This document shows positions 21,050 through 22,786 of a DNA stretch of 22,786 nucleotides, piece after piece. Position numbers and translations under genes: made by a program. The notes below the pieces were generated by a model. That model searched no databases, was not told where the DNA came from, and saw only the letters and a list, made by a program, of their open reading frames with translations. The DNA is taken from positions 1-22,786 of the IMG/VR virus record IMGVR_UViG_3300033153_003632; one strand, written 5' to 3'. Every line of letters begins with the position of its first letter. Position 1 is the stretch's first letter. The DNA is from a virus.

Positions 21050-21091
21050 AAGAAAAGAGCCCCAGCCCTCTCGAGCACAGAGGACTGGGGC
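21050..21091 (-). terminator. Rho-independent terminator after the capsid genes
   Basis: On the minus strand a 13-bp stem (plus positions 21079-21091 with 21059-21071, one G-U pair) encloses a 7-nt loop and is followed by TCTTTTCTT (21050-21058). It is a strong intrinsic terminator by eye. It lies in the 104-nt gap between the decoration gene stop and the adaptor start, where there is no other gene. Confidence 0.88.
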
Positions 21092-21142
21092 AGGGCAAGC
21101 GGCCCGAGAGGACATTGGGCCGAGCCTGCCCCAGGGGGGGAC

Positions 21143-21616
21143 TTAGAAGCGCTTCAGGATGTGGATGGCAACCTTGTTGGCAGTGGTTGCACCCTTGGCC
21201 TCAAGAGCCACAGCAAACAGGCCAGCAGTGTCACCGGCTGCAGCAGTCTCGACTTCACCGGGTGCAGTAGATGCAGCGGAAAGCGCTGCACCGCTTGCGA
21301 TGGTGCCACCGTTGCACTTTACGTCTGCAGCGTAGCCACTGACTACAACGCGCACCTGCTCACCTGCACCGGCTGCAGCGTTGAGCGCTACACCGATTGC
21401 AAGCGGGTTGCCGGTTGCAACGTTGGCAGCCTGCTTGATGTAGAGCACCCGGTCTGCACCGGTCTTGGTGTTGTCGAGTCCAACCACATCACCGGCTACG
21501 ATGGCAGCGCTGGAGATGAAGGTCTCCACCTGGCGACGGTTCGAGGTGTCGCCTGCAATCGAGGTGGGGCTGGTGATGCCATCACCCAGGAACTGAACGA
21601 GAGTAGAAGTTGCCAT
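21143..21616 (-). CDS. Head decoration (capsid cement) protein
   Basis: The 157-aa product begins MATSTLVQFLGDGITSPTSI and has the strand pattern of DUF2190-like capsid cement proteins: AAIVAGDVVGLDN, ATGNPLAIGVALNAAAGAGE, QVRVVVSGYAADV and a C-terminal LFAVALEAKGATTANKVAIH. It is Ala/Gly/Thr-rich and lacks enzymatic motifs. Its place 5 nt after the capsid gene supports a role in stabilising the mature head. GGAGG lies about 10 nt before the ATG, inside the end of the capsid gene. The pair is followed by the strong terminator, consistent with high shared expression. Confidence 0.8.
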   Translation of the reverse strand: MATSTLVQFLGDGITSPTSIAGDTSNRRQVETFISSAAIVAGDVVGLDNTKTGADRVLYIKQAANVATGNPLAIGVALNAAAGAGEQVRVVVSGYAADVKCNGGTIASGAALSAASTAPGEVETAAAGDTAGLFAVALEAKGATTANKVAIHILKRF

Positions 21617-21621
21617 GATTC

Positions 21622-22632
21622 TCAGGCCTCCGCATCGAGAAGAACACCATGGGATGCAAGGTGTCCGGTGACGAGCTGCATACGGCAGAACACCATAGCG
21701 GCTTCAGTTGCAGTACCAGGGACGGGCATCATATCCGAGACCTCGAAGAAGCCATCGGTATCAGCGTACAGCTGGAAGTTGCTGCTGCTCAGCACGTAGG
21801 CCGAGACAGGCTTTGCCGGGTTCTGCGCCGTGAAGCCAAGGTTGGGTTCCACATAAATCTTGGCACCGCGCCACATGGCCACCATGTCACGATCGAGGCT
21901 CTCGCGGTCGCCTGCGCTGACGTAGTTGACAAAGGACTGCTGCTGCTTCTGGAAGGCAGCAAAGCACTTGGGGCTCATGAAGATGATGTCAGGGAACTCA
22001 CCGGACGGGTTCCGAATCTGACAGTCAATCATGAGCTGGTCAAGGTGCGACAGGTCAAAGCCTGCACCGGAATCGAAGAAGTTGTTGAACCAGTTTTGCG
22101 CTTGGTACGTTGCCTTCGAGAGACCGCCCACACTGTTCTGCTGGGTTGCAGCGGTGACACCCTCAAGCCAACCAGTGCCGGCTGCAGTGGTCATGCCGTT
22201 GAGGGTTTGCAGGGTGGTGAGGCTGGTGCTGTTACCGACCATGACCTGCTTGCTGACCTCTTTCTTGAGCCCAAGCATGACGTTCTTCATCTTGGATTCA
22301 AGGATGTTGACTACAGCCAGGTCACCCTTGTTGGCAGCCTTTTCCACTGCGCTGAGAATGATGGGCTGAGTGAAGTTCGAGTATTCGAACTTGGCCGACT
22401 GGAAGGGGTCCGTCACTGCCATCGAGACAGGCTCAAAGCCGTTGCTCAGCTCAGTGATGCTGCTGTGCTCACCGAAGATGACAGGCTGTTCTACGCGCAG
22501 GCCGCCCGAGACTTTGACCAGGTTGCCTGCAGACTCAATGGCGCGGAAGAGGGGATGACTGAGAAAGCTGTTGTCGATGAGCTTGTCACGCAACAGCTGC
22601 AGCGTGGTGCTGATTACTGACTGGGGTGCCAC
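21622..22632 (-). CDS. Major capsid protein, HK97-fold family
   Basis: The 336-aa product has the recognisable layout of a widespread tailed-phage capsid family: ISTTLQLLRDKLIDNSFLSH at the N-terminus, GGLRVEQPVIFGE (E-loop region), FEYSNFTQPIILSAVEKAAN (about 83-102), a helix VVNILESKMKNVMLGLKKEV, and the late segment FPDIIFMSPKCFAAFQKQQQ. It ends with AMVFCRMQLVTGHLASH. GTG at 22632 is taken as start because GGAGG lies 6 nt upstream and residues encoded farther upstream do not look coding. A GTG start is odd for the most abundant virion protein. The leader contains paired repeats that may control its translation. It forms the icosahedral shell with the decoration protein. Confidence 0.9.
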   Translation of the reverse strand: MAPQSVISTTLQLLRDKLIDNSFLSHPLFRAIESAGNLVKVSGGLRVEQPVIFGEHSSITELSNGFEPVSMAVTDPFQSAKFEYSNFTQPIILSAVEKAANKGDLAVVNILESKMKNVMLGLKKEVSKQVMVGNSTSLTTLQTLNGMTTAAGTGWLEGVTAATQQNSVGGLSKATYQAQNWFNNFFDSGAGFDLSHLDQLMIDCQIRNPSGEFPDIIFMSPKCFAAFQKQQQSFVNYVSAGDRESLDRDMVAMWRGAKIYVEPNLGFTAQNPAKPVSAYVLSSSNFQLYADTDGFFEVSDMMPVPGTATEAAMVFCRMQLVTGHLASHGVLLDAEA

Positions 22633-22638
22633 GATAGG

Positions 22639-22643
22639 CCTCC
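22639..22643 (-). promoter_or_regulatory. Capsid gene ribosome-binding site
   Basis: GGAGG on the minus strand lies 6 nt before the GTG at 22632 and fixes the start of the capsid gene. Its upstream edge overlaps a 9-nt element able to pair with an upstream copy. Confidence 0.8.
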
Positions 22644-22720
22644 ACTGTGGGTTGATTGCTTGCGGTATTTGAGGCGTGCAGTGTTCGTCACTGTGCCGAT
22701 AGCGCAAGCCTCCACAGTGG
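22642..22720 (-). repeat. Inverted repeat in the capsid leader
   Basis: CCACTGTGG (plus 22642-22650) and CCACAGTGG (22712-22720) are exact reverse complements. Being quasi-palindromic, they also form a near-direct repeat with flanking GCCTCC (so GGAGGC occurs twice in the mRNA). Two further segments lie between them, CACTGTG (22689-22695) and CAGTG (22679-22683), which can pair with the outer elements or with each other. Confidence 0.75.
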
Positions 22721-22739
22721 GGTGGGCTCACATGGGGGC

Positions 22740-22748
22740 ACTATAGCA
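22740..22748 (-). promoter_or_regulatory. Extended -10 promoter for the capsid operon
   Basis: The minus strand reads TGC-TATAGT, an extended -10 element with a good TATAAT match. The sequence 17 nt upstream (TGCACC) is a weak -35, as often seen with TGn promoters. Transcription would start near 22733, giving a leader of about 100 nt before the capsid GTG. Confidence 0.5.
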
Positions 22749-22753
22749 TGGTG

Positions 22754-22786
22754 CTACTTACGGTGCATAGCCTGAGCTATGGCCAG
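22754..22786 (-). CDS. Possible 3' end of the upstream gene
   Basis: From the right edge, one minus-strand frame stays open for 10 codons (LAIAQAMHRK) and stops at TAG 22754-22756. The other two frames stop sooner or read poorly. In this gene order the upstream gene would be a scaffold, portal or similar head gene, but 10 codons cannot identify it. Confidence 0.35.
   Translation of the reverse strand: MAIAQAMHRK
22766..22781. promoter_or_regulatory. Palindromic site near -40 of the capsid promoter
   Basis: CATAGC (22766-22771) and GCTATG (22776-22781) form a perfect 6-bp inverted repeat with a 4-nt spacer. It lies about 40 nt before the predicted transcription start. It could be an activator or operator site, or an RNA hairpin at the end of the upstream gene; no T-run follows, so it is not a terminator. 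Confidence 0.35.

Follow-up and report, generated by a model that had tools for sequence, protein, structure and literature searches.

The leader of the major capsid protein gene in this virus record raises the question of whether its repeated, mutually complementary segments around the ribosome-binding site form an RNA structure that acts on the gene and, if so, which of the possible pairings have been preserved among relatives. In the window, that is, the whole stretch of 22,786 nucleotides that was analyzed, four such segments had been noticed in a preliminary description, which read them as a switchable translation control element built on mutually exclusive pairings. All four were confirmed in the sequence of the minus strand, together with a Shine-Dalgarno (SD) sequence (Table 1), and CCACWGTGGAGG was found to have just two copies in the entire record, both of them in the capsid leader. 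When folded, the leader is more structured than its shuffled versions (-41.4 vs -34.2±3.6 kcal/mol), but only moderately so (z -2.0), with 11 of 200 shuffles folding as well. Since a single-sequence fold that stands only moderately above shuffles is not convincing alone, relatives were compared. The preliminary description is partly confirmed by this comparison: the underlying observation is real, and the best-supported fold differs from the one that had been put forward.

Table 1. Features of the capsid leader and its transcription unit in the window, with the evidence on which each assignment rests.
Feature	Position	Strand	Basis
Likely stop codon (TAG) of upstream gene	22754..22756	minus	relatives' stop usually 23-50 nt upstream of hairpin A
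Promoter-like element, TATGCA-18-TATAGT	22740..22769	minus	comparison with relatives; predicted
Extended -10, TGcTATAGT	22748-22740	minus	part of promoter-like element
Hairpin A, AGCC (22728-22725) / GGCT (22710-22707)	22707..22728	minus	R1 match; covariation
Segment 1, CCACTGTGG	22720-22712	minus	sequence
Helix P1, loop of A (22720-22712) with segment 4 (22650-22642)	22642..22720	minus	covariation; swap test
Helix P2, CTTGCG (22708-22703) / CGCAAG (22664-22659), enclosing B	22659..22708	minus	conservation in clade
Hairpin B, GGC/GCC, A / CAC internal loop, CAGTG/CACTG	22673..22697	minus	compensatory changes
Segment 2, CACAGTG	22695-22689	minus	sequence
Segment 3, CACTG	22683-22679	minus	sequence
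Segment 4, CCACAGTGG	22650-22642	minus	sequence
SD sequence, GGAGG, 6 nt 5' of start codon	22643-22639	minus	sequence; GGAGG-type SD in most relatives
Major capsid protein gene, GTG start at 22632	21622..22632	minus	phrog_9953 major head protein, E=4.7e-19
Probable cement (decoration) protein gene, next after capsid	21143..21616	minus	position; homologue match
Terminator-like hairpin, 13 bp then TCTTTTCTTG, closing capsid-cement unit	21059..21091	minus	sequence; relatives

Relatives were collected by scanning 2.9 million viral contigs, the queries being the window's capsid protein and more remote proteins of the same family, which yielded 367 overlapping loci carrying 117 unique leaders. The element belongs to a large group of uncultured phages of ~30 kb; no close annotated phage was found for the window's capsid protein, the nearest named match being a 30%-identical stretch of the capsid protein of Myxococcus phage Mx9. 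Prophage or host copies were considered and rejected: a first scan of GTDB species genomes returned no encoded capsid relative, and the exact pattern of the two conserved hairpins described below had no match in GTDB genomes. Searched across all viral contigs independently of any protein, the same exact pattern gave 37 matches, all in this capsid family; the 33 new loci among them were checked and all lie directly upstream of the capsid gene, and the other four were already in the capsid set. Comparison with Rfam 15 gave no match for the window's leader, even at E<=5, and none at the gathering threshold for the leaders of 17 relatives.

Judging by the aligned leaders, the most conserved part of the leader is a hairpin that was absent from the earlier scheme (hairpin A), accompanied by a second hairpin (B). 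Hairpin A has the form [AGCC]-CA-CC...GG-A-[GGCT] in the window, with an internal loop CA / A and a CC/GG pairing that closes the apical loop, and can be extended outward to 22732/22703; segment 1 corresponds to the apical loop plus its closing GG. Its form across the family is [s1]-YA-CC...GG-(A/C)-[s1'], and that of hairpin B, the inner stem of which is made by segments 2 and 3, is [s2]-A-[stem]-loop-[stem']-CAC-[s2']. A covariance model of the two hairpins (R1), built from 20 leaders, matches the window at 22673-22728 with 63.6 bits and gives 91 matches at E<=1 over 99 loci, each directly upstream of the capsid gene; about 100 divergent viral leaders have A+B, always ~90-100 nt before this gene. 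Applied to 23 whole phage records, R1 identified one strong copy in nearly all of them. Second matches in whole records (E 0.003 to 0.9) were treated as probable chance, the one in L370 having been viewed as an alignment; the weak extra matches with E 0.003-0.05 lie at G007:C1:16670-16728 (L370:1171-1229), G011:C1:19052-19082 and G003:C1:137-187.

The evolutionary record of A+B was assessed on an alignment of 72 distinct sequences fitted to the R1 model (A3), in which the element is 92.3% paired and shows 194 cells changed on both sides of a pair, against 53±7 in shuffles, with a covariation score of 0.492 against 0.154; sliding controls reach at most 0.106 and at most 46% paired. The helix of hairpin A (helix 1 of A3) is 97.5% paired, and a MAFFT seed alignment agrees with these results (37 both-side-changed cells vs 11.4±2.6). 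Among 26 leaders of the window's clade, the pair 22726-22709 in the A stem changes from G-C to C-G in four, and the pairing of segments 2 and 3, one of those originally suggested, is kept in 94% of cells, is fully paired in 22 leaders and displays compensatory changes. Conservation extends to unpaired bases: the 3' strand of the internal loop of B reads AC in 72/72 distinct sequences, the opposite A is present in 66/72, and the A of YA in hairpin A is found in 66/66 ungapped sequences. The comparison thereby shows A+B to be a conserved, capsid-specific RNA structure.

The long-range pairing of segments 1 and 4 (P1) also withstands comparison. It is kept in 93% of cells over the 26 clade leaders and fully paired in 14 of them, with 26 both-side-changed cells against 10.8±3.7 (0/500 shuffles), and the covarying alignment pairs in the window's clade are 20-92 (CG 13, UA 11), 21-91 (UA 18, AU 5) and 23-89 (CG 10, UA 10). 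The proposed overlap between segment-4 pairing and the SD sequence holds in that the first GG of the SD is paired in P1; the helix ends there, and the AGG stays outside it. Compensatory changes among relatives, the finding on which the original proposal hinged, are thus present in both 1+4 and 2+3, and the covariation of A+B and P1 bears out its view of the capsid leader as structured and evolutionarily constrained.

When 27-37 divergent leaders are compared, the loop of hairpin A pairs more strongly with its own pre-SD region than with swapped partners (z about -4, p<=2e-4). The first version of this test, in which the whole 5' arm was set against the SD, gave p 0.07, as compared with p<=2e-4 for the loop only, perhaps because the GGC/GCC of the A stem swamps the signal. 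With composition-matched shuffles, the loop A-SD pairing gave a combined Fisher p of 0.001-0.01, the signal coming from few lineages: three of 27 are individually significant (L021, L002 and L245), L299 is suggestive, and both L021 and L002 belong to the window's wider clade. The SD pairing therefore appears to be strong in the window's clade, where the loop is complementary to the SD edge with compensatory changes, as would be expected of an SD-occluding pseudoknot, and in a second clade, and to be weak or absent elsewhere. The fact that P1 is not universal weighs most heavily against a purely translational reading and, given that A+B is universal and the SD pairing is not, the universal core may have another job. 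In the clade of L034, L035, L041, L042 and L036, the SD-region GAGGCGCT is largely complementary to the 3' arm of A (GAGCGCCT), and not clearly to its loop, which is perhaps another route to the SD.

P1 is compatible with hairpin B, and also with hairpin A if the two form an H-type pseudoknot, in which stem A is followed by the loop CACC and stem P1, and the last loop accommodates B and a shortened P2. Helix P2, the outer two pairs of which overlap hairpin A, is 96% paired in the window's clade, but its sequence is almost invariant there; GCAG/GTAG variants occur in a second clade. On the clade alignment, the pseudoknot keeps 95.7% of cells, with helices that covary or are kept, against 90.9% for a nested alternative in which A is melted, P1 is extended over the SD and P2 is full. 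The extension of P1 over the rest of the SD (GGCC/GGCC) was rejected, being only 71% paired and in conflict with the A stem, whose flip from G-C to C-G in four leaders means that the extension would not pair there. Energy computed with ViennaRNA nonetheless favors the nested fold for the window, at -41.4 kcal/mol, over the pseudoknot, at about -22 (A, P1 strands open) plus -15 (P1 helix) before pseudoknot costs. Covariation fits both arrangements, and P1 is formed in both.

The remaining parts of the original scheme did not survive. Pairings 1+2 and 3+4 are each fully paired in only 4 of the 26 leaders and are not kept in relatives; that they can form at all is a by-product of near-palindromic CAC-W-GTG units. 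With these two pairings unconserved and P1 able to coexist with A+B or with B, a scheme in which all four segments pair in mutually exclusive ways is not supported. The GGAGG that had been taken for a decoy is the 3' arm of hairpin A, and is present only in the window's closest kin, most relatives having GGAGCC instead.

The surrounding genes point to a dedicated transcription unit. In a relative, the genes that precede the capsid gene have matches to terminase, to portal and, weakly, to scaffold; the gene immediately upstream weakly resembles a scaffolding protein in relatives (phrog_3927, E=0.0048 with the L368 homologue). A small gene between portal and scaffold in L368 (5640-6116) has a sub-cutoff match to a WYL domain (PF13280, E=0.001), which is unusual inside a structural operon. 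The capsid start codon has ATG, GTG and TTG alternatives at the same place in relatives, and a homologue of the probable cement gene (L368:8085-8558) matches PF09956 Phage_cement_2 below cutoff (E=0.0013). After the cement gene, at the junction where the window has its strong terminator-like hairpin, most relatives checked have GC-rich hairpins, often with another hairpin before. An Rfam match to sX13 at 21054-21153 on the minus strand was discarded, as its 28 bits compare with a gathering threshold of 50 and it corresponds to the terminator region.

Because a strict consensus promoter scan of the window alone found no promoter, the promoter call rests on comparison. Of 44 divergent leaders, most carry a -35/-10 pair, usually at 8-15 nt 5' of the A core, as exemplified by TTGGCA-17-TATTAT, TTGACA-18-TATAAA and TTGTCA-18-TACAGT; the mean score of these promoter-like sites is 7.33 vs 5.88 in the mononucleotide shuffles used as control, several lineages having weak sites. 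We infer a transcript start at ~22733, at or just before hairpin A. With a sigma70-like promoter predicted just upstream, the capsid transcript very probably has this leader as its 5' UTR, and the promoter-like evidence supports the earlier assumption that it begins a single RNA.

The explanation that we place first, with tentative confidence falling a little short of even, is that the element represents a family of cis-acting RNAs, located in the 5' UTR of the capsid message, by which translation of the capsid protein is controlled. Transcription would start at ~22733 and hairpin A would fold first; where P1 exists, the emerging SD would be taken up by the loop of A, slowing 30S loading in an off state that could be either an H-type pseudoknot that retains A or a nested P1+P2+B fold in which A is melted. 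A+B would serve as a receptor, its internal loops YA/A and A/CAC being read by a putative factor acting in trans, for which a virion-assembly protein of the phage or an RNA-binding protein of the host is the likeliest candidate and which would shift the balance, and the dedicated promoter-leader-capsid-cement-terminator unit would supply capsid at a regulated high level. We infer both the effect on translation and the binding factor, the latter being suggested by the invariant internal-loop bases. A precedent is the T4 gene 32 pseudoknot. Located 67 nt before the start codon, it nucleates gp32 on unstructured A+U sequence that spans the ribosome-binding site (PMC3014915), and it was considered in a 2010 review to be possibly the only viral pseudoknot in translation autoregulation (PMC3014915). 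As in the autogenous translational operator of T4/T2 gene 32, the capsid leader places a pseudoknot, here a candidate, in the phage 5' leader of a heavily made protein, here with proposed control. It departs from gene 32 in that its hairpin loop pairs directly with the SD edge, that it has a second conserved hairpin, and that it serves the capsid gene.

A constitutive 5' mRNA stabilizer or ribosome-standby structure, involving no switching, would account for hairpins at the 5' end of a structural gene that is usually the most abundant of its kind, for the strong SD and for the promoter-leader-capsid-cement-terminator unit. T7 gene 10 is an example of a structured leader on a highly expressed phage gene, and in the T7 phi10 - gene 10 - T-phi arrangement the capsid gene, flanked by scaffold and tail genes, comes with a promoter, leader and terminator of its own. 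The capsid gene studied here likewise has its own promoter-like site, leader and terminator-like hairpin, but the predicted promoter is of the sigma70-like host type, the leader has long-distance pairing and the sequence is unrelated. We regard this explanation as unlikely, since the fixed internal-loop bases (AC 72/72, A 66/72) exceed the needs of stability and a covarying SD-edge pairing is expected to lower initiation, not to raise it.

Rather unlikely, too, is an antitermination RNA of the HK022 put kind, in which the 5' hairpins of the late transcript would bind the elongating RNA polymerase, allowing it to pass the terminator-like hairpin that follows the cement gene and to go on into the tail genes. 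The HK022 put RNA is about 70 nt long and has two stem-loops, putL lying just downstream of its promoter (PMC9378689). The likeness is one of gross anatomy: put acts in cis as RNA, and the capsid leader also has two stem-loops (~55-70 nt), A+B being 55 nt, directly downstream of an inferred promoter-like site, with a terminator-like hairpin downstream in most relatives; the universality of A+B, which the SD pairing does not share, is also in its favor. HK022, however, has two put sites, one for each early operon, whereas here each record has one strong copy, before the capsid gene only, and the compensatory SD-edge pairing seen in some clades, the window's included, has no obvious antitermination role.

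A small-molecule or ion riboswitch on the capsid gene is very improbable. The SAM-II and preQ1-II riboswitches are SD-sequestering H-type pseudoknots in which a 5' hairpin loop takes up the SD, as the 5' hairpin loop does in the capsid leader, and the conserved internal loops would suit such a sensor; the 55-nt core, however, has few invariant unpaired bases, is detected by no Rfam model, lies in a phage capsid context and was never found before another gene, and its exact pattern had no match in GTDB species genomes. Finally, a DNA operator in which CCACTGTGG and CCACAGTGG, both near-palindromes and 70 bp apart, are two copies of a palindromic protein-binding site can hardly be credited, because the compensatory changes in relatives destroy the window's palindromes and direct repeat and keep the complementarity, as in L010 (CCATTGCGG/CCGCAATGG, still complementary) and L016 (CCGTAGCGG/CCGCTATGG).

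Control of capsid translation from the leader may not be confined to this family. The Mx8/Mx9-like capsid family, which was reached through the weak Mx9 match, has a conserved leader of its own (alignment A6), recognized neither by R1 nor by Rfam, with 23 both-side-changed cells vs 4.7±1.9 over 25 sequences. In A6, the segment CATCTGA of the leader is paired with a stretch leading into the SD (TCAGATGGAG), the CATCTGA/TCAGATG helix adjoining it; another Mx8/Mx9-like subgroup has a different pair (CCACACAAA / TTTGTGGAG) at the same place, part of which is scored as unpaired by the fixed-column count. Leaders of this second class were located in L408-L486 (e.g. L408:2862-3003), L406, L488 and L489. 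The cultured phages Mx8 and Mx9 of Myxococcus and BUCT555 of Stenotrophomonas also have leaders predicted, from single sequences, to fold onto their SD. An A-like hairpin picked out by eye in Mx9 is missed by R1 and is an insert that Mx8 lacks, so no link to A+B is claimed. It is conceivable, although we hold it with less conviction than the control of capsid translation by A+B and P1, that capsid-mRNA leader RNAs are widespread and have evolved repeatedly in tailed phages, with at least two unrelated classes that pair at the SD edge, as RNA sensors matching capsid synthesis to assembly.

No description of such a capsid leader was found in the open-licence papers searched. A cis-regulatory leader RNA is a known kind of element; the family, its placement on the capsid gene and its combination with SD-edge pairing appear to be new. 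The capsid is usually a phage's most abundant protein, and the matching of its amount to scaffold and other virion proteins has mostly been explained by promoter strength. The leader element probably tunes the amount of capsid protein, and a conserved, capsid-specific RNA that can reach the ribosome-binding site would provide a post-transcriptional control point in a group of phages without a close cultured relative.
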